The notes beneath the pieces were generated by a model, which did no database searches, was not told the DNA's origin, and saw only the letters and a list, made by a program, of their open reading frames with translations. DNA of 23,349 nt, from the IMG/VR virus record IMGVR_UViG_3300043313_001321, positions 1 to 23,349 of that record. One strand, given 5' to 3'. This document shows, in pieces, positions 5,654 to 21,206 of the stretch (the stretch's first letter is position 1; every line of letters starts with the position of its first letter). The position numbers and the translations under genes were made by a program. The stretch is from a virus.

Positions 5654-5790
5654 CCGTCCGCGCCGAACCCCGCTGCCTGCTGGCCGCGCCCGGCTGGTGG
5701 TGCTCCCGTCTCCGCGGCCACGAAGGGCCGTGCGCGCTCCGCCCGTCCTGGTGGAACCTGCCCGCCCTGTGGCGCCACTGGAGGTCCTGA
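5650..5790 (+). CDS. 46-residue Trp/Cys-rich protein
   Basis: This ORF starts at GTG overlapping the previous stop (GTGA) and stops in TGATG shared with the next ATG, so it fills exactly the space between two neck genes. The protein has five Trp and three Cys. The CSRLRGHEGPC segment gives Cys18, His24 and Cys28, with an upstream Cys9, which could bind a metal ion. C-x-GHEGPC-like motifs are common in small actinobacterial proteins. The perfect coupling at both ends is the best evidence that it is translated. There is no clear ribosome binding site, so it would depend on translation of the upstream gene. Confidence 0.55.
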   Translation: MTVRAEPRCLLAAPGWWCSRLRGHEGPCALRPSWWNLPALWRHWRS

Positions 5791-6122
5791 TGGTCAAGGG
5801 ACGAGTAGCCAGTGATGGGAGCTACGTCTACATCGATCCCGACAAGCTGGCCGCCTACGTCCGCGACGGCGGAGGCCCCATCCTCCGCGACCTCGACCGC
5901 CGCGCCAGCCGCGTGCAGGCCGGAGCCCGCCGCCAGGTCGGCAAGGACACCCGCCGCCTCGAACGCAGCATCGTCAAACGGCAGGGCGTGGACGCCAAGG
6001 GCCCGTTCATCCTCGTCGTCTCCGAGGGCGTGCCCTACGGCTACTGGCATCACGAGGGCAACACCCGAGGCTGGCCTGGTAACCGCTTCCTGTCCGACAA
6101 CCTGCACCTGGCCCGCGGATAG
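5790..6122 (+). CDS. HK97-gp10-like neck/tail-completion protein
   Basis: This 110-residue protein starts at ATG with TGGAGGT just upstream (5779-5785). A central basic helical part (ILRDLDRRASRVQAGARRQV) leads to strands and the segment VPYGYWHHEGNTRGWPGNRF near residues 81-100. The pattern 'YxxxxHxG ... RP-like ... FL' close to the C-terminus is characteristic of HK97-gp10-type proteins, which act in joining head and tail. It is the last gene of the first rightward group; a large hairpin follows at 6126-6185, then the leftward cassette. Confidence 0.68.
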   Translation: MVKGRVASDGSYVYIDPDKLAAYVRDGGGPILRDLDRRASRVQAGARRQVGKDTRRLERSIVKRQGVDAKGPFILVVSEGVPYGYWHHEGNTRGWPGNRFLSDNLHLARG

Positions 6123-6125
6123 ACG

Positions 6126-6185
6126 CAGCGAGGGCCCGCCTCCTGCCGGGAGCCCAGATGGGCGGCAGAAGGACGGGCCCTGCTG
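6126..6185. terminator. Hairpin between convergent gene groups
   Basis: The left arm 6126-6148 and right arm 6163-6185 pair over about 20 positions, with AGGGCCCG/CGGGCCCT as a perfect 8-bp core and CAGC/GCTG at the base; the loop is about 14 nt. It lies 4 nt after the rightward neck gene stop and just beyond the end of the leftward cassette. No T-run is present on either side. A bidirectional terminator is the natural reading. Confidence 0.65.
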
Positions 6186-6198
6186 TCGGCGCGGAGGG

Positions 6199-6330
6199 CT
6201 ACACCCGCCCGTGGGACTTACGGTGCGCTTGGGTCCCCGCCGGACACGGCACAGCGTAGACGCGCCGGAGCCCCGCCCTCCCCGCCGCAGCGTGTGGGAG
6301 ATGCAGGGCCCCGGCCTTACCGTGACTCAA
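6199..6330 (-). CDS. Possible last small ORF of the leftward cassette
   Basis: The frame ends with TAG at 6199 and can be read from TTG at 6330 (43 residues). It ends VYAVPCPAGTQAHRKSHGRV, a Cys/His pattern similar in style to the short basic zinc-type proteins common in Streptomyces phages. There is no ribosome binding site and no ATG or GTG in a useful place, so the start is a guess and the ORF may not be expressed. Without it, 6186-6346 holds no gene. Confidence 0.28.
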   Translation of the reverse strand: MSHGKAGALHLPHAAAGRAGLRRVYAVPCPAGTQAHRKSHGRV

Positions 6331-6346
6331 ACGGTGGACGGCCAGC

Positions 6347-6541
6347 CTACCGGCACTGCTTGCAATTGCGCGCCGCCCACCGGGCGAAGTGGTTGTGCGG
6401 ACACCTCGGCGCCGGTACCCGATGGTACCGGCCCTCCGTCCCCTCCACCGGCGCCAGCTCATCCAGCAGCGCGTACACCGCCGGGCAGGCCTTCGTGGCG
6501 AACCGGCCCACCTCATCCCGAGGCTGATCGAGGACGGTCAC
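6347..6541 (-). CDS. Small Cys/His protein, 64 residues
   Basis: GTG at 6541 overlaps the preceding stop by GTGA on the minus strand. An ATG further upstream at 6562 is in frame but would overlap the previous gene by 25 nt. The protein begins VTVLDQPRDEVGRFATK, has a helix (VYALLDELAPV), and ends with RCPHNHFARWAARNCKQCR, placing Cys47, His49, His51, Cys60 and Cys63 as a compact possible zinc site. Function unknown. Coupling to the two genes upstream in the cassette suggests a joint role. Confidence 0.55.
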   Translation of the reverse strand: MTVLDQPRDEVGRFATKACPAVYALLDELAPVEGTEGRYHRVPAPRCPHNHFARWAARNCKQCR

Positions 6542-6681
6542 CGCTCCCACCTCCGCAGGCACACCCAGTGCATGCCGTACGTGACCCGGTCCCCGTCACC
6601 CAGCGGCAGCGGGCACCGCGGGCAGGCGGGCCGCTCGATGCGCCGCAGGCACGCCCGGAATACCTCGCCGCAGTCGCTCAC
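6538..6681 (-). CDS. 47-residue zinc-knuckle-like protein
   Basis: GTG at 6681 overlaps the stop of the two-HTH gene (GTGA), and the stop overlaps the next GTG. The motif is C20-x2-C23 then H38-x2-C41 (ACPRCPLPLGDG ... MHWVC), a plausible single zinc site, with Cys4 and Cys11 ahead of it. The layout is the same as in the 51-residue protein at 7328-7483, so the two may be distant relatives. No enzyme motif is present; a protein- or nucleic-acid-binding role is likely but unproven. Confidence 0.55.
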   Translation of the reverse strand: MSDCGEVFRACLRRIERPACPRCPLPLGDGDRVTYGMHWVCLRRWER

Positions 6682-7331
6682 GACTCCACCGCCCGGTGCA
6701 CCCGCATGCCGTCCCGCCGGTCCTCGGAGCGGACCGCGAGACCCCGCCGCAGCAGGTCCGACAGCAGCCCCGACGCGGACCCCTCCGACCAGCCCCCCGC
6801 CTTCGCCAGGGAGGCGATGGTGAGGCCGTCCGGCGCCTGCCGCAGCAGCGCCGCCGCCCGCCGCCACTTCGGCCCGGTCACCGGCTCCGGCGCCCGGCGG
6901 CCCGTCCTCGCGGACAGCACCCGCCCGTCGGTGGCGATGATCGTGTCCGGCGCCGGATCGTGCTTCGCCAGCGCATCCGCGACCGCCGAGGCGCCCACCC
7001 CCAGCCGGTCGCGGATGACGCGGGTGGAGTCCCCCGCCTCCCGCATCGACCAGATGAGGGCTTCCCGCTCCGCGATGGCCGCCTTGGTGCCGGTCAGCCG
7101 CAGGTCCGCGAGGTCCCCGAACCACCGCAGGCACGCCTCATGCCACAGCGTGTCCGGGCCGAACGAGGTCAGGTGCGCCCCCGCCTCGCGGAGGACAGCG
7201 AGCCGCTGCAACGGCCGGACCAGCTCCGCGCGGATCGCCGCAACCTCGGCGTCAATCTCCGCCTGGCTCATCGGCCGGGCCGCGCCGATCGCGCCCCGCA
7301 CCACCGCGAGGTCGTACACGACGGCGGTCAT
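6678..7331 (-). CDS. DNA-binding protein with two helix-turn-helix regions
   Basis: This 217-residue protein starts at ATG 7331, overlapping the preceding stop (ATGA). The N-terminal 55 residues are helical. Residues about 88-124 (EREALIWSMREAGDSTRVIR then DRLGVGASAVADAL) look like a helix-turn-helix. A short ATDGRVLSARTGRR linker follows, then residues 155-212 (AALLRQAPDGLTIASLAKAG, GWSEGSASGLLSDLLRRGLA) form a second, winged-helix-like unit. This two-HTH layout with a 'DGR' linker is found in phage and actinobacterial DNA-binding proteins. It is the largest gene of the leftward cassette and a candidate regulator of its own or the neighbouring promoters. Target and role are not shown by the sequence. 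Confidence 0.7.
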   Translation of the reverse strand: MTAVVYDLAVVRGAIGAARPMSQAEIDAEVAAIRAELVRPLQRLAVLREAGAHLTSFGPDTLWHEACLRWFGDLADLRLTGTKAAIAEREALIWSMREAGDSTRVIRDRLGVGASAVADALAKHDPAPDTIIATDGRVLSARTGRRAPEPVTGPKWRRAAALLRQAPDGLTIASLAKAGGWSEGSASGLLSDLLRRGLAVRSEDRRDGMRVHRAVES

Positions 7332-7483
7332 CGGACGGCCGGGCAGGCGAGGTGGGTGGCGCGCTCGTCAGTGGTGACGTAGGCGCCCTGACCGTTGACG
7401 ATGGGGTCCGGGCATACCTCGCAGATGCGGGGTGTCGGGTGGACGTTGGTGATGCGGGCGGCAATGCGTCGGCTGCGGGCCAT
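7328..7483 (-). CDS. 51-residue zinc-knuckle-like protein
   Basis: ATG at 7483 has a strong ribosome binding site, GAAGGAG (7496-7490), 6 nt upstream. A longer in-frame version starting at 7564 would run through the promoter at 7521-7538 and is rejected. The basic N-terminus (MARSRRIAARITNVH) precedes C21-x2-C24 (ICEVCPDPI) and H44-x2-C47 (THLAC), matching the layout of the 47-residue protein encoded two genes downstream. It is the first gene of the promoter-driven leftward unit and overlaps the two-HTH gene by ATGA. Function unknown. Confidence 0.65.
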   Translation of the reverse strand: MARSRRIAARITNVHPTPRICEVCPDPIVNGQGAYVTTDERATHLACPAVR

Positions 7484-7499
7484 GGTGATCTCCTTCGGT

Positions 7500-7538
7500 G
7501 GCGTGGGATCGTGCGCGCTCATTATGCACACACCTAAC
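7500..7538 (-). promoter_or_regulatory. Leftward GTGCATAAT promoter and leader
   Basis: On the minus strand GTTAGGTGTGTGCATAAT spans 7538-7521 and is identical over 18 nt to the element at 19862-19879 on the plus strand. The CATAAT hexamer (7526-7521) is a likely -10. CCACGCC follows at 7506-7500, just before the ribosome binding site GAAGGAG. GGGGGACAG, found in three of the related leaders, is missing here and is replaced by GAGCGCGCACGA. Confidence 0.65.
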
Positions 7539-7548
7539 GGGGGGATGT

Positions 7549-7845
7549 CTAGACGGCGCGCCACTCGCGGCGCAGCTCCGCGTTGACGACCGCGGCGGCC
7601 CGACCGGCGGAGCCGTGCTCCGCGATCAGCTCCGTGGCGTGACCCACCGGCACGAGGACGATCAGGGTGCCGTCGTCCTCGCCGAGGTCCTCGCCGTCGA
7701 TGGTCAGGAACGCCGCGAGGCGCGGCTGGTAGATGGCCGGGCCCGCCAGGCCGTCGGCCACGTCCAGGACGACGGTGCCGAGGAGGCGGGTGGCGGCCGC
7801 GGAGAGGGCGGCAGCGGTAACGCGGGGGGCGGTAGTCGTGGTCAT
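7549..7845 (-). CDS. Unknown small protein, 98 residues
   Basis: I place the start at ATG 7845, with GGTAGGG about 3 nt upstream; an in-frame start at 7899 would cross the GGGGGACAG element and is less likely. The protein has a Thr/Ala-rich helical N-terminus (VTAAALSAAATRLLGTVV), then strands (AIYQPRLAAFLTIDGED and GTLIVLVPVG), and a C-terminal helix (AVVNAELRREW). No Cys, no membrane segment and no known motif. It is the first gene of the leftward region and appears to have its own promoter at 7866-7883. It is separated from the next gene by the second leftward promoter. Confidence 0.6.
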   Translation of the reverse strand: MTTTTAPRVTAAALSAAATRLLGTVVLDVADGLAGPAIYQPRLAAFLTIDGEDLGEDDGTLIVLVPVGHATELIAEHGSAGRAAAVVNAELRREWRAV

Positions 7846-7865
7846 GTCCCTACCATCGGCCGAAA

Positions 7866-7883
7866 CTGTCCCCCCCTTTAGCC
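7866..7883 (-). promoter_or_regulatory. Putative leftward promoter/operator with GGGGGACAG
   Basis: On the minus strand the sequence reads GGCTAAAGGGGGGGACAG, ending 20 nt before the ATG at 7845. The GGGGGACAG part (7874-7866) is shared with five other intergenic sites. TAAAGG or GCTAAA could serve as a weak -10. The assignment rests on the repeated motif rather than on a good -35/-10 pair. Confidence 0.45.
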
Positions 7884-7970
7884 GGGCACGCGGGGGCACC
7901 CCCCGAAAGGGTGAACCGCTCCGACCAGAGCGCTCCCCCCTACCCCCCGCAACTCACCCCCCGGCATGGT

Positions 7971-7983
7971 TACGCTGACCGCC
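7971..7983 (+). promoter_or_regulatory. Putative leaderless promoter for tail genes
   Basis: TACGCT (7971-7976) is followed by GACCGCC and then GTG at 7984. The element at 13551 has the same layout: TAGGCT, seven bases GCCCGCC, start codon. Streptomyces -10 elements are of the TAGRRT type, and a 7-nt gap puts transcription start at or next to the start codon, giving a leaderless mRNA. Confidence 0.45.
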
Positions 7984-8703
7984 GTGACGACCCCCGAGAC
8001 CTCCGCACCCCCCGCGCCGCCGACGCCGCCGCTGCCCGCCTACCCGCCGGTCACCGGCCGGACCGCGCCCGCCCCCCTCGACCCGCCGCAGCCGCTGCCC
8101 GACGGGGTGCCGGTGTTCGGCAAGGTGGACGACCGGGTCGCCGTCCCCACCAAGCAGTTCGGGCTGGAGGTGCGCTACCGGCACCGCGGCAAGAAGGTCA
8201 CCGAGCAGGTGCCGTTCACCGTCTACACCAAGCTCGACGCCGGAGGCATCCTCCGTCTCATGCAGGCCCAGACCGAGATGGAGCAGGCCAACGCCACCGC
8301 GTTCGTCCTCGCGACCTCCCTGCTGGATGACGACGGTGTCCCCACCGACTGGTCCCCGCCCGGCATCGACGAGCCCGCCCTGGAGGACGAGGGCGACCTG
8401 GACTCCCGCGCCCTCCGCGGCGAACCCACCGAGGTCGATCCGGAGGGCCCCCTGCTGTACGAGCGGTGGGACGGCGAACTGGTCCCCTACGACGACCTCG
8501 GCTACGACGAGTTCCGGGACGGCTCCTCCCGCCGACGCTTCGCGTTCATCATGTCCAGCACCTACTACCGGGTGGAGCTGGACGCCCTCATCGACACCTC
8601 CAAGTGGCTGATCGAACAGTCCGGGGGACGCCCTACGGGGCGGCCCGCGTCCTCTGGGCGTGGGCCGCAGTCAACGCCCCGTGGGTCCGGTCGCAAGCGC
8701 TGA
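7984..8703 (+). CDS. Tail assembly chaperone, short form
   Basis: I choose GTG at 7984 (239 residues) because it lies 7 nt after a TACGCT -10 element. ATG at 7966 is in frame and would add six residues, but has no ribosome binding site. The N-terminal 45 residues are Pro/Ala/Thr-rich. The body is acidic and folded (VRYRHRGKKVTEQVPFTVYT, then a helix ILRLMQAQTEMEQANATAF). The last stretch after 8628 is Gly/Arg/Ser-rich and looks like non-selected tail sequence. Placement directly before the tape measure gene, with a second frame overlapping at its end, is the hallmark of the lambda G/GT pair of chaperones that coat the tape measure during tail assembly. Confidence 0.75.
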   Translation: MTTPETSAPPAPPTPPLPAYPPVTGRTAPAPLDPPQPLPDGVPVFGKVDDRVAVPTKQFGLEVRYRHRGKKVTEQVPFTVYTKLDAGGILRLMQAQTEMEQANATAFVLATSLLDDDGVPTDWSPPGIDEPALEDEGDLDSRALRGEPTEVDPEGPLLYERWDGELVPYDDLGYDEFRDGSSRRRFAFIMSSTYYRVELDALIDTSKWLIEQSGGRPTGRPASSGRGPQSTPRGSGRKR

Positions 8704-8915
8704 CCCGCCTCCACTGCACCGACCTCACCGCGCTCCCCGCAACTGCCCTGTGGGATCTGATCTACTGCCTGGTGGTGGAGGACACCAAGGAGGCCCGAGA
8801 CCATCGGGAGAAGGTGGACGCAGCGCTCGACTCGCAGTCCACCGGCAAACCCGACCGGGCCACCTGGGGCAAGCTGCCAGCCCACCAGCGGGCCATGAAG
8901 AACGCGCCGATGTGA
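7984..8915 (+). CDS. Tail assembly chaperone, predicted -1 frameshift product
   Basis: The frame one base back is open through 8466-8915 and encodes a protein-like segment after about 8628: TPYGAARVLWAWAAVNAPW, then ALWDLIYCLVVEDTKEAR and a basic C-terminus ending HQRAMKNAPM. It has no start codon of its own at a sensible place. Joining it to the short form by a -1 slip near 8623-8628 gives SGG-TPYGAARVLW. The fused product would be about 310 residues and ends 12 nt before the tape measure start. G/GT-type frameshifting is well known for long-tailed phages; the exact slip point here is inferred. Confidence 0.65.
8623..8668 (+). other. Candidate -1 frameshift site with downstream stem
   Basis: In the chaperone frame the codons are TCC GGG GGA CGC from 8620. 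A slip of the glycine tRNA from GGA (8626-8628) back to GGG (8625-8627) leads into the second frame. GCGGCCC (8640-8646) can pair with GGGCCGC (8662-8668), starting 12 nt after the slip codon. This is not a textbook X-XXY-YYZ heptamer, so the mechanism is inferred. Confidence 0.5.
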
Positions 8916-16285: not shown

Positions 16286-16666
16286 TCAGGTGACCGGCTC
16301 GTAGCCGCCCTCCGGGGTGAGGAACACCCACCGCCGCCCGCGCAGCAGCAGCGGCACCGCCCCCGGATCAGGCTCACTCGGGGACAGCAGGTAGCCGCGC
16401 GGCCCGGACCATGCGGGGTCGCCGTGGACGGAGCGACCGTCCTCGCCGTCGATGATCAGGCCGGGCGCCCCGAAGTTGTGGACCCGCGCCAGCAACGCGA
16501 TCACGTTCGGCAGGCTGTCCTGATCGGGTCGTCGGGTGCCTCCCATGCCGCCCGGCCGCCGGTGGTGGAGCTGCCACAGGTCGCCGTCCACCTCGCCGAG
16601 GAGAGCCCCGGTGATCGCGCACCGACCGTCCTCCCGCTGCCACGCGGCCCGCCGCAACTCGCGCAT
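16286..16666 (-). CDS. HNH endonuclease
   Basis: ATG at 16666, 126 residues; a TTG two codons upstream is possible but less likely. The HNH core is clear: WQLHHRRPGGMGGTRR (His34/His35), DSLPNVIALLARVHN (Asn54, His63). The Cys pair that often surrounds such cores is missing, with only Cys16 present. The C-terminus (GRRWVFLTPEGGYEPVT) resembles short actinophage HNH proteins. It may be a homing-type nuclease or, as in many phages, a packaging helper; its location away from the terminase genes favours a free-standing nuclease. It faces left while its neighbours face right, and its promoter overlaps the divergent promoter of the next gene. Confidence 0.85.
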   Translation of the reverse strand: MRELRRAAWQREDGRCAITGALLGEVDGDLWQLHHRRPGGMGGTRRPDQDSLPNVIALLARVHNFGAPGLIIDGEDGRSVHGDPAWSGPRGYLLSPSEPDPGAVPLLLRGRRWVFLTPEGGYEPVT

Positions 16667-16674
16667 CCCCAACG

Positions 16675-16693
16675 CTGTCCCCCTCGGTTCCTA
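16675..16693 (-). promoter_or_regulatory. Leftward promoter of the HNH gene
   Basis: On the minus strand TAGGAA (16693-16688) is a TAGRRT-like -10, followed by CCGA and GGGGGACAG (16683-16675), then 8 nt and ATG at 16666. The GGGGGACAG lies where transcription should begin. The stretch is immediately next to the rightward -10 at 16699-16704, so the two promoters cannot easily be used at once. Confidence 0.55.
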
Positions 16694-16696
16694 TCG

Positions 16697-16734
16697 TGCA
16701 TAATCGGGGGGACAGTTGTACCACGCCGAGGAGG
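16697..16734 (+). promoter_or_regulatory. Rightward GTGCATAAT promoter and leader
   Basis: TGCATAAT (16697-16704) is followed by GGGGGGACAG (16706-16715), CCACGCC (16721-16727) and the ribosome binding site GAGGAGG (16728-16734), 5 nt before ATG at 16740. The same order of modules is found at 19874 and 20906. GGGGGACAG here mirrors CTGTCCCCC at 16675-16683, giving an inverted repeat around both divergent -10 elements. Confidence 0.65.
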
Positions 16735-16739
16735 ACACC

Positions 16740-16961
16740 ATGACCGCACCACCCGTCGCGAAGCGCCCCGCCGGACGCCCCCCGAAGATCAAGAACCGGG
16801 CCCGCTGGGGTCTGTACGTCAACGCCGAGCACCGCCGCAAGGGGGAGGAGCGGGCCGCCCGCAAGGACCACGGTGACTACACCGACGTGCTGCGCTCCCT
16901 CATGGCCGCCTACGCCGCGGGCAAGCTGGACGCCTACGCCGCCACCCCGCCGGAGGACTGA
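16740..16961 (+). CDS. Ribbon-helix-helix-like DNA-binding protein
   Basis: ATG at 16740 has GAGGAGG 5 nt upstream; a TTG at 16716 is in frame but lies in the leader. The 73-residue protein has an AT-hook-like basic arm (KRPAGRPPKIKNR, residues 8-20), a strand RWGLYVN (22-28), and two helices (EHRRKGEERAARKDHG and TDVLRSLMAAYAAGK). A strand followed by two helices after a basic arm is the layout of Arc/CopG-type ribbon-helix-helix repressors. It is first in the recombination operon, right behind the divergent promoter, which is where an autoregulator would be expected. DNA binding is inferred from the pattern. Confidence 0.6.
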   Translation: MTAPPVAKRPAGRPPKIKNRARWGLYVNAEHRRKGEERAARKDHGDYTDVLRSLMAAYAAGKLDAYAATPPED

Positions 16962-19848: not shown

Positions 19849-19910
19849 TAGACACAACAGGGTTAGGTGTGTGCATAATACGGGGGACAGGCCCCCTCCA
19901 CGCCAAGGAG
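19849..19910 (+). promoter_or_regulatory. Rightward GTGCATAAT promoter and leader
   Basis: TAGACA (19849-19854) may serve as -35, 19 nt before CATAAT (19874-19879). GTTAGGTGTGTGCATAAT (19862-19879) is identical to the leftward element at 7538-7521. GGGGGACAG (19882-19890), CCACGCC (19898-19904) and the ribosome binding site AAGGAG (19905-19910) follow in the same order as at 16697 and 20906. Confidence 0.7.
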
Positions 19911-19916
19911 CACACC

Positions 19917-20804
19917 ATGAACGCCACCACCCCCCGCTGGACCGTCACCACCGACTCCTGGTCCCTCGCCCGGATGCGGGAGGCGCAGGCCTTCCGCCGC
20001 GCCAACCCCGGTGTCACCGTCGAAGAGCAGGCCACCGACATCTACCTGGACGCCTACCTGGCCGCCTGCGAGGACGCCGCCGCCGAGGTCGGCACCACCA
20101 CCGAGCGCGCCACCGCCGACGAGGCGCCCGCGCTCCGCGGCACCGGCTCCGGCAACAGCACCGGCGGCAACCGCAACGCCCCCACCGACGGGCAGATCCG
20201 CTTCCTCGCCTCCCTTGCCCGCGACCTCGGCTACGAGCTGCAGACCCCCCGCGACAAGTCGCACGCCTCCCTCATCATCGACGGCGCCAAGAAGGCCCTC
20301 GACAAGGCCCGCCGCGAGGGCACCGCCGCCGTCCGCCCGGAGCGCAAGGCCACCGAGGGCCAGATCAGCTACCTGACGGACCTCCTCGCCACCCGCGTCG
20401 CCCCCGAGGGCTCCGACTACGCCCTGATCGACCCGGCCACCCTGTCCTTCGCGGACGCCTCCCTCGCCATCGACGTGCTGTCTAAGCGCCCCCGCGCCAC
20501 CGCCGCCACCTCCGCCCACGGCATCCGCGAGGGCCGCTACGCTTTTCAGCCGGAGGACGCGCAGGCCATGTTCCTGCGGGTCAGCCGGACGGGTCGCGTC
20601 TACTCGCAGGCCGGGCCCTCCGAGCACCCCTACCGCGGCACCGACACCGACGCCCTGCGCTGGATCGCCGCCAACCCCCGCGAGGCCGCCGCCCTCTACG
20701 GTCAGCTCATTGGCTGCTGCGGGCGGTGCGGCCGGGAGTTGACTGATGAGACCTCACGGTCCGCGGGCCTGGGCCCGGATTGCGCCAAGAAGGCCGACTG
20801 GTGA
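19917..20804 (+). CDS. Two-repeat protein with DUF6011-like zinc end
   Basis: ATG at 19917, ribosome binding site AAGGAG 6 nt upstream; 295 residues. Residues 1-60 are helical and 60-86 are Thr/Gly/Asn-rich linker. Two similar segments follow: 88-131 (APTDGQIRFLASLARDLGY ...) and 144-192 (KATEGQISYLTDLLATRVA ... SFADASLAIDVLSK), each starting T-x-GQI-x-(F/Y)L. The C-terminus has YGQLIGCCGRCGRELTDETS with C268-x2-C271 and GLGPDCAKK (Cys289), as in the DUF6011 zinc-binding family. It is a one-gene transcription unit between hairpins at 19775 and 20820, under its own promoter. DNA or RNA binding is likely by the look of it; the function is unknown. Confidence 0.75.
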   Translation: MNATTPRWTVTTDSWSLARMREAQAFRRANPGVTVEEQATDIYLDAYLAACEDAAAEVGTTTERATADEAPALRGTGSGNSTGGNRNAPTDGQIRFLASLARDLGYELQTPRDKSHASLIIDGAKKALDKARREGTAAVRPERKATEGQISYLTDLLATRVAPEGSDYALIDPATLSFADASLAIDVLSKRPRATAATSAHGIREGRYAFQPEDAQAMFLRVSRTGRVYSQAGPSEHPYRGTDTDALRWIAANPREAAALYGQLIGCCGRCGRELTDETSRSAGLGPDCAKKADW

Positions 20805-20881: not shown

Positions 20882-20941
20882 CTAGCTCCCGCGCTAGTGT
20901 GCGTGCATAATCGGGGGGACAGCCCGCCCACGCCGAAGGAG
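20882..20941 (+). promoter_or_regulatory. Rightward GTGCATAAT promoter and leader
   Basis: CTAGTGTGCGTGCATAAT ends at 20911 (CATAAT 20906-20911). GGGGGGACAG lies at 20913-20922, CCACGCC at 20928-20934 and the ribosome binding site GAAGGAG at 20935-20941. A short inverted repeat CTAGC/GCTAG (20882-20886 and 20892-20896) lies where a -35 or an operator might be. Confidence 0.65.
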
Positions 20942-20945
20942 ACCC

Positions 20946-21206
20946 ATGACCACCCGCCCGCTCCTCCCCCTCGCCCCCCCGGTGGGCTGCCACGTCTGCC
21001 GCACCGGCTGTATCTGCCCCGCCGACCGTCTCGGCTGCGGCCACTACGGCTGCCGCGGACGCGCCCCCCTGTCCTGCCCGATCGCTCTCGCCTCGCAGAT
21101 CGAGTACGAGCAGCGGCTGGCCGCCACCCGCCGTCAGCGGGCTGTCCTCGCCGCCCGCCGGGCCGCCTGGCGTGACGGCGCCCTCCTCGCCAACCTCCTG
21201 CCGTGA
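20946..21206 (+). CDS. Cys-rich small protein, 86 residues
   Basis: ATG at 20946, 4 nt after GAAGGAG; the stop overlaps the next GTG. Seven Cys fall within residues 15-44: C15-x2-C18 (VGCHVCRTGC), C22, C24, C31 (LGC), C36 (GHYGC) and C44, with His16 and His33 nearby, enough for two metal sites. The C-terminal 40 residues form a basic helix (QIEYEQRLAATRRQRAVLAA). Zinc-dependent nucleic-acid or protein binding is plausible. First gene of the last operon. Confidence 0.68.
   Translation: MTTRPLLPLAPPVGCHVCRTGCICPADRLGCGHYGCRGRAPLSCPIALASQIEYEQRLAATRRQRAVLAARRAAWRDGALLANLLP

Follow-up and report, generated by a model that had tools for sequence, protein, structure and literature searches.

What is a block of small leftward genes doing in the midst of the rightward late genes of a phage, and by what is it expressed? 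The window—the whole stretch of 23,349 nucleotides analyzed here—is a fragment of the genome of an actinobacterial-type siphovirus. The block lies in it between a neck gene (5790–6122, plus strand; phrog_5 Neck1, E 4e-4) and the gene in the tail assembly chaperone position (7966–8703, plus strand), which precedes the tape measure gene. Near TCCGGGGGACG (8600–8650), a programmed frameshift likely leads from the chaperone gene into the frame at 8466–8915.

The same phage is found in G001 (IMG/VR IMGVR_UViG_3300028790_000007, 55,735 bp), which matches the window in two parts, at 99.94% and 100% identity, and is permuted relative to it; about 125 bp of window sequence are common to both contig ends. 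Judged by its sequence, this 55.7-kb genome is that of a lytic-looking actinophage. A simple codon-usage gene call places 87 genes on the whole genome, almost all of them rightward, the leftward exceptions being the cassette, the gene at 16286–16666, and one doubtful open reading frame. The gene at 16286–16666 looks HNH-like by eye, has no Pfam match, and keeps its position in the two closest relatives used here, a sister phage (L012, contig 3300048931_000013; about 73–83% nucleotide identity in the cassette region) and a cousin phage (G006/L030, contig 3300037071_004025). Outside the window, about 4.6–3.3 kb short of the end of the rotated G001 sequence, an FtsK/SpoIIIE-type ATPase gene (PF01580) stands between the capsid protease gene and the early-type genes of this integrase-free phage. 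A near-identity search among named phages gave no match. No host was found, because two scans of bacterial genomes with the HTH protein of the cassette and a tail protein gave no relative.

Genes and boundaries of the cassette

The cassette consists of five supported minus-strand genes encoding 98, 51, 217, 47, and 64 amino acids, which overlap or lie adjacent to each other. The first, orf98 (7549–7845), has homologs of 56–80% identity in IMG/VR contigs and no recognized fold: its predicted structure reaches a pLDDT of only 45, is not interpretable, and resembles no recognizable fold, and the 98-residue protein family is undescribed in the libraries searched. It is followed by zn51 (7328–7483), with the motif C-x2-C…H-x2-C, by the two-HTH regulator of 217 residues (6678–7331), and by zn47 (6538–6681; CxxC…HxxC) and zn64 (6347–6541; CPH…CxxC). 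Stop and start codons overlap as ATGA between zn51 and the HTH gene and as GTGA at the HTH/zn47 and zn47/zn64 junctions. In the sister phage, zn51 is exactly missing, so that promoter P2 (see below) and the ribosome-binding site run straight into the HTH gene; zn47 is 87% identical there, and zn64 has homologs in L012, L043, and G006. The dN/dS values against the sister are 0.29 for orf98, 0.25 for the HTH gene, and 0.37 for zn47, close to the 0.23 of the structural genes, with zn64 (0.58) as the exception.

The original prediction had counted five or six leftward genes. Overlaps and dN/dS bear out five of them; the sixth, at 6199–6346, is not supported, as starts and lengths differ between window and sister and no start codon is common to both. 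The C-terminal peptide AGTQAHR before the stop in this stretch between zn64 and the terminator is common to both phages.

The C-terminal part of the 217-residue protein is predicted as a winged HTH with a pLDDT of about 87–92. The protein matches MarR_2 with 35.3 bits in the window (cut-off 27) and with 17.8 bits in the sister. The best fold matches are ArsR, SmtB, and MarR-family repressors, none of them below E 0.001: for the MarR/ArsR-like matches, a probability of 1.0 goes along with an E value of 0.04 at best. WhiB-like proteins were considered as well, and no Pfam Whib domain exceeded the cut-off in the phage records, with two weak matches in other phages.

At its distal end the cassette meets the late operon in a convergent hairpin (6126–6185), which faces the end of the neck gene head-on, has a folding energy of −51 kcal/mol (z −4.2 for the cassette strand), and bears no U-run. 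The hairpin had been predicted from the window, and L012 and L043 have one in the corresponding position; presumably, it serves as a terminator common to cassette and late operon. Together with the promoters described below, this architecture argues for the independent expression that had been proposed for the block.

Distribution and positions of the module

Profile scans found orf98 in 13 IMG/VR contigs, while translated searches of the INPHARED phages (about 50,700 named phages) and of the PLSDB plasmids gave no match. Every locus has a two-HTH gene downstream of orf98, in most cases with a start codon that overlaps the preceding stop, and this linkage persists while the HTH protein diverges down to 23% identity. 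Hence, orf98 and the two-HTH regulator are, as far as gene linkage can tell, the conserved core of a module that unrelated phages from soil have in common.

This pair occupies four kinds of late-region position in the 13 contigs. The cassette sits at the site and in the orientation of the window in L043 and L048, two phages with structural proteins of no more than 37–65% identity to those of the window phage, and the sister keeps it at the same site. In L042, L046, L047, and L058, the pair lies directly before the major capsid gene; in L041, with the terminase gene upstream, and in L040, it precedes the portal gene; and in L045 and L060, it is found some distance after the lysin gene. In the cousin phage, gene order is kept from the tail protein over neck and chaperone to the tape measure gene and onwards, and the neck protein is 69% identical, but the junction between neck and chaperone is empty: the two matches lie 56 bp apart. 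A plain absence of the cassette from this phage was considered and rejected, since its orf97, zn69, and HTH gene were located elsewhere, in rightward orientation, with the capsid protease gene on one side and the major capsid gene on the other. In the empty junction (L030, 2990–3030), the sequence GGCGGGTTCGACTCCCGCCCCACCC is similar to a tRNA T-arm and 3′ end; no tRNA was detected there by ARAGORN. Another candidate for site comparison, the tape measure relative L006, was dropped; it has no other structural gene in common with the window and is therefore uninformative on the cassette site.

The comparison of gene order that had been suggested for this locus shows the site empty in the cousin and occupied in L012, L043, and L048. 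The idea of an inserted block stands insofar as the cousin site is empty; the insertion is not a recent one, because the same block is found at the same place in phages with structural proteins of 37–65% identity. Since the site is the same in distant phages and the position differs in other relatives, the cassette reads as an old module, able to relocate and with a preference for gaps between late genes. Nor does it look like a universal late block linked to the virion: the position varies and every locus encodes a DNA-binding regulator.

Neither PF00589 nor PF00239 found a match in the 13 records, three of which exceed 53 kb. A locus for a lysogeny or immunity repressor was rejected on these grounds, and a classic lysogeny switch is unlikely given that no integrase or resolvase appears in these records.

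Two promoters of different type

The cassette had been predicted to carry two promoters of its own, at 7521–7538 and 7866–7883, and to be tied by one of them to an early-type network. For the inner promoter, P2, this is borne out. P2 comprises the sequence GTTAGGTGTGTGCATAAT at 7521–7538 on the minus strand, with the −10 box CATAAT at 7521–7526 and a −35-like TAGACA at 7546–7551 that overlaps the stop codon of orf98; it is conserved in the sister. The 18-bp identity with the site at 19862–19879 on the plus strand, before the gene for a DUF6011 protein (19917–20804), is exact. Trained on the genome's eight rightward GCATAAT sites and not on P2, a weight matrix scores P2 at 33.8, equal to the best site, compared with 11.8 for the best non-site and 16.4 for the best of 20 Markov shuffles. 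The family therewith comprises nine sites genome-wide: P2 and eight rightward ones, three in the window and five more in G001. The other two in the window have their −10 box CATAAT at 16699–16704 and 20906–20911 (both plus strand) and precede the genes 16740–16961 and 20946–21206; in the site at 19862–19879, the counterpart of these boxes is 19874–19879. An ATG begins 34–40 nt downstream of P2 and of all rightward sites but one, which has a gene with a GTG start behind it.

The eight rightward sites follow the consensus GTTAGGTGTGTGCATAAT-NN-GGGGGACAG, where the GGGGGACAG block comes directly after the −10 box. P2 is the sole family member without it, in the window phage and the sister alike. 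This block lies where transcription presumably starts and could serve as operator or leader element. At the first rightward site (16670–16715), the −10 box is flanked by an inverted repeat of CTGTCCCCC and GGGGGACAG. In the cousin, homologous genes are preceded by a related form, GTGTGTCTATTAT, and the HTH gene by a weaker one. The products behind family sites are nonstructural where they can be recognized (DUF6011, DUF932). We infer that this family is transcribed early, and P2 is the promoter that, by position and sequence, would drive the HTH operon.

The outer promoter, P1, is of another kind; the stretch 7866–7883 turned out to be the upstream half of a sigma-28-type promoter, so that the tie to the early-type network applies to P2 and not to the first promoter. 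In the window, P1 reads TAAA-N16-GCCGATGG, or TAAAG-N15-GCCGAT (7853–7880, minus strand), with the −35 element TAAA at 7877–7880, followed by G, and the −10 element GCCGATGG at 7853–7860, which ends 7 nt before the orf98 start codon. Inside the spacer lies the element GGGGGGACAG (7866–7875, minus strand), which is GAGGGGACAG in the sister; GGGGGACAG is likewise what stands behind the −10 box of the eight rightward early-type sites. Aligned orf98 starts display T-N-N-A-G, 15 nt, and G-Y-C-G, usually followed by (A/T)-T, at constant spacing; positions 1 (T), 4 (A), and 5 (G) do not vary in 11 aligned loci, and the N16 spacing is fixed in 12. Columns of the motif are 70% identical compared with 38% for the columns outside. 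In 11 of the 12 loci, 6–7 nt separate the end of P1 from the start codon; in the twelfth, P1 lies 40 nt upstream and is accompanied by a ribosome-binding site. Two loci that came up once the motif had been defined also fit P1, with a distance of precisely 7 nt to the start codon, each of them resembling an earlier locus.

Against TAAA-N16-GCCGATAA, the FliA/WhiG consensus, P1 fits at 113 of 144 positions over the 12 loci, whereas random stretches of the same loci reach 80.6 ± 1.7 with a maximum of 85; the resulting z of 18.8 is to be read with the 12 loci amounting to about seven independent lineages and with a consensus that was tried on P1 only after the sequences had been seen. Six other patterns (vegetative, SigB, SigE, SigR, sigma-54, and BldN) give a z of 4.8 or less. 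Among the consensus strings compared, only that of FliA/WhiG was taken from cited papers. Individually, six of the 12 loci, the window included, fit at 10 of 12 positions and the remaining ones at 8–9 (three or four mismatches). The window P1 is the sole site in the 55.7-kb genome that fits TAAA-N15/16-GCCGATAA at 10 of 12 positions or better, and a relaxed pattern finds few further sites in the relatives. WhiG and flagellar promoters have been defined by a −35 TAAA and a −10 GCCGATAA with at most two mismatches (PMC8325347), a range that includes the window P1. The spacing of 16 in all loci differs from the 15 of the E. coli sigma-28 consensus TAAAGTTT-n11-GCCGATAA (PMC2859248); for WhiG promoters, open-licence PubMed Central papers yielded no published spacing value.

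The assignment of P1 as a promoter of the FliA/WhiG (sigma-28 family) type is well supported at the level of sequence. A phage-encoded sigma factor as reader of P1 was rejected, as no sigma-70 region 4 domain exceeded the cut-off in 11 records. Since no phage sigma factor is recognizable, a sigma factor of the host is the simplest reader, on the assumption that the host possesses WhiG or FliA.

Possible working and related systems

We give about an even chance to the reading that the cassette is a regulatory module responsive to the state of the host, with P1 read by a sporulation or motility sigma factor of the latter. The ancestral form was probably one translationally coupled operon, expressed from P1 as a leaderless or nearly leaderless mRNA, and in most relatives orf98 and the regulator would still make up one such operon. 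The host's own FliA-family sigma factor would read P1, switching the module on as the host enters a sporulation or motility state, and the HTH regulator might then adjust phage gene expression. In the window phage, P2 would have been built at the orf98 stop codon, so that the regulator is also made along with the early-type genes; the small zinc-finger-like genes may be satellites of the core formed by orf98 and the HTH gene. The activity of FliA-family sigma factors marks sporulation in Streptomyces and other programs elsewhere (PMC8325347). This suggests that the module tracks the developmental state of the host, and the phage might lie dormant in differentiating cells or be carried by them. 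Gene content, conservation, relocation, promoter elements, and terminator can be read from the sequences, while the sigma factor used, the timing, and the effect on the phage are inferred. More tentatively, and with considerable doubt, one might generalize that lytic actinophages of several unrelated structural types have in common a two-gene sensor of developmental state—WhiG/FliA acting on orf98 and its regulator—that reprograms infection, for example, toward carriage of a dormant genome in spores or motile cells.

Alternatively, the cassette might be an ordinary moron, whose regulator acts on the early/late switch of the phage through the nine-site family and in which host development plays no part; P1 would then be read by the vegetative sigma factor or be an operator. 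Its own promoters and terminator, the antisense orientation, the empty site in the cousin, and the membership of P2 in the early-type family all agree with this. So do the relatives of the regulator: in its N-terminal and first HTH region, the cousin protein is 37–44% identical to prophiGD43A-5 gp3, vB_MoxS-R1 gp5, and PFR1 Orf30, which in these temperate phages are encoded near the start of the early region, after an excise gene or a small gene adjacent to a regulator. Such locations favor a regulation directed at the phage and speak for the host-responsive reading too. The cassette HTH gene differs from these relatives in belonging to phages with no recognizable integrase and in its place among late genes, downstream of orf98 and P1. 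Against the moron reading, P1 is a poor fit to the vegetative consensus (z 4.8 compared with 18.8), and an operator for the module's own HTH protein should drift along with it; that P1 stays while this protein falls to 23% identity argues that P1 serves a conserved host factor rather than a drifting phage protein. We hence regard the purely phage-directed reading as possible but somewhat doubtful. Among the functions originally envisaged for the block, the regulatory one agrees with its content; nothing indicates exclusion or host takeover as such.

It is also conceivable, if rather unlikely, that the module counteracts development: P1 would fire as the infected host sporulates or changes its lifestyle, and the HTH protein would repress developmental genes, keeping the cell permissive for the phage. 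A WhiG-type promoter would provide such timing, Streptomyces is poorly permissive while it sporulates, and repression of developmental genes has been reported early in Alderaan infection (PMC10117723); however, the relatives of the regulator with annotated context are early genes of phages. That orf98 is a capsid-linked or morphogenesis protein, as its place just before the major capsid gene in L042, L046, L047, L058, and G006 might suggest, is highly improbable in view of the other positions (terminase/portal, after the lysin, reversed at neck/chaperone), the constant linkage to a DNA-binding protein, and the separate promoter.

Phages of sporulating or zoosporic actinobacteria have to handle differentiating hosts, and the development of Streptomyces is described to limit phage spread (PMC10117723). 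A conserved FliA/WhiG-type promoter before a phage regulator would make the question of how they do so directly testable. In open-licence PubMed Central papers, we found no report of a phage promoter read by a developmental sigma factor. Known links between phages and host development comprise phage-encoded WhiB, ParB, FtsK, and SsgA, SP-beta and the sporulation of B. subtilis, and sporulation sigma factors of phages (PMC10117723). These phages carry or act on a developmental regulator, whereas in the host-responsive reading the phage would sense the state of its host by way of the host's sigma factor. With the WhiG/FliA regulons of actinobacteria, the window P1 has in common the TAAA/GCCGATAA elements with at most two mismatches (PMC8325347); it differs in that the target is a phage gene, the spacing is 16, and the transcript would be leaderless or nearly so in 11 of 12 loci. 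Phage morons, too, are among the closest known counterparts; they resemble the cassette in having their own promoter and terminator, a variable position between late genes, and an empty site in a relative. Unlike a rare insert, however, the cassette is built on a core pair conserved in 13 phage contigs and bears a promoter that appears to be of a host developmental sigma class. It is best described as a variant of the moron: a conserved actinophage regulatory pair with a FliA/WhiG-type promoter.
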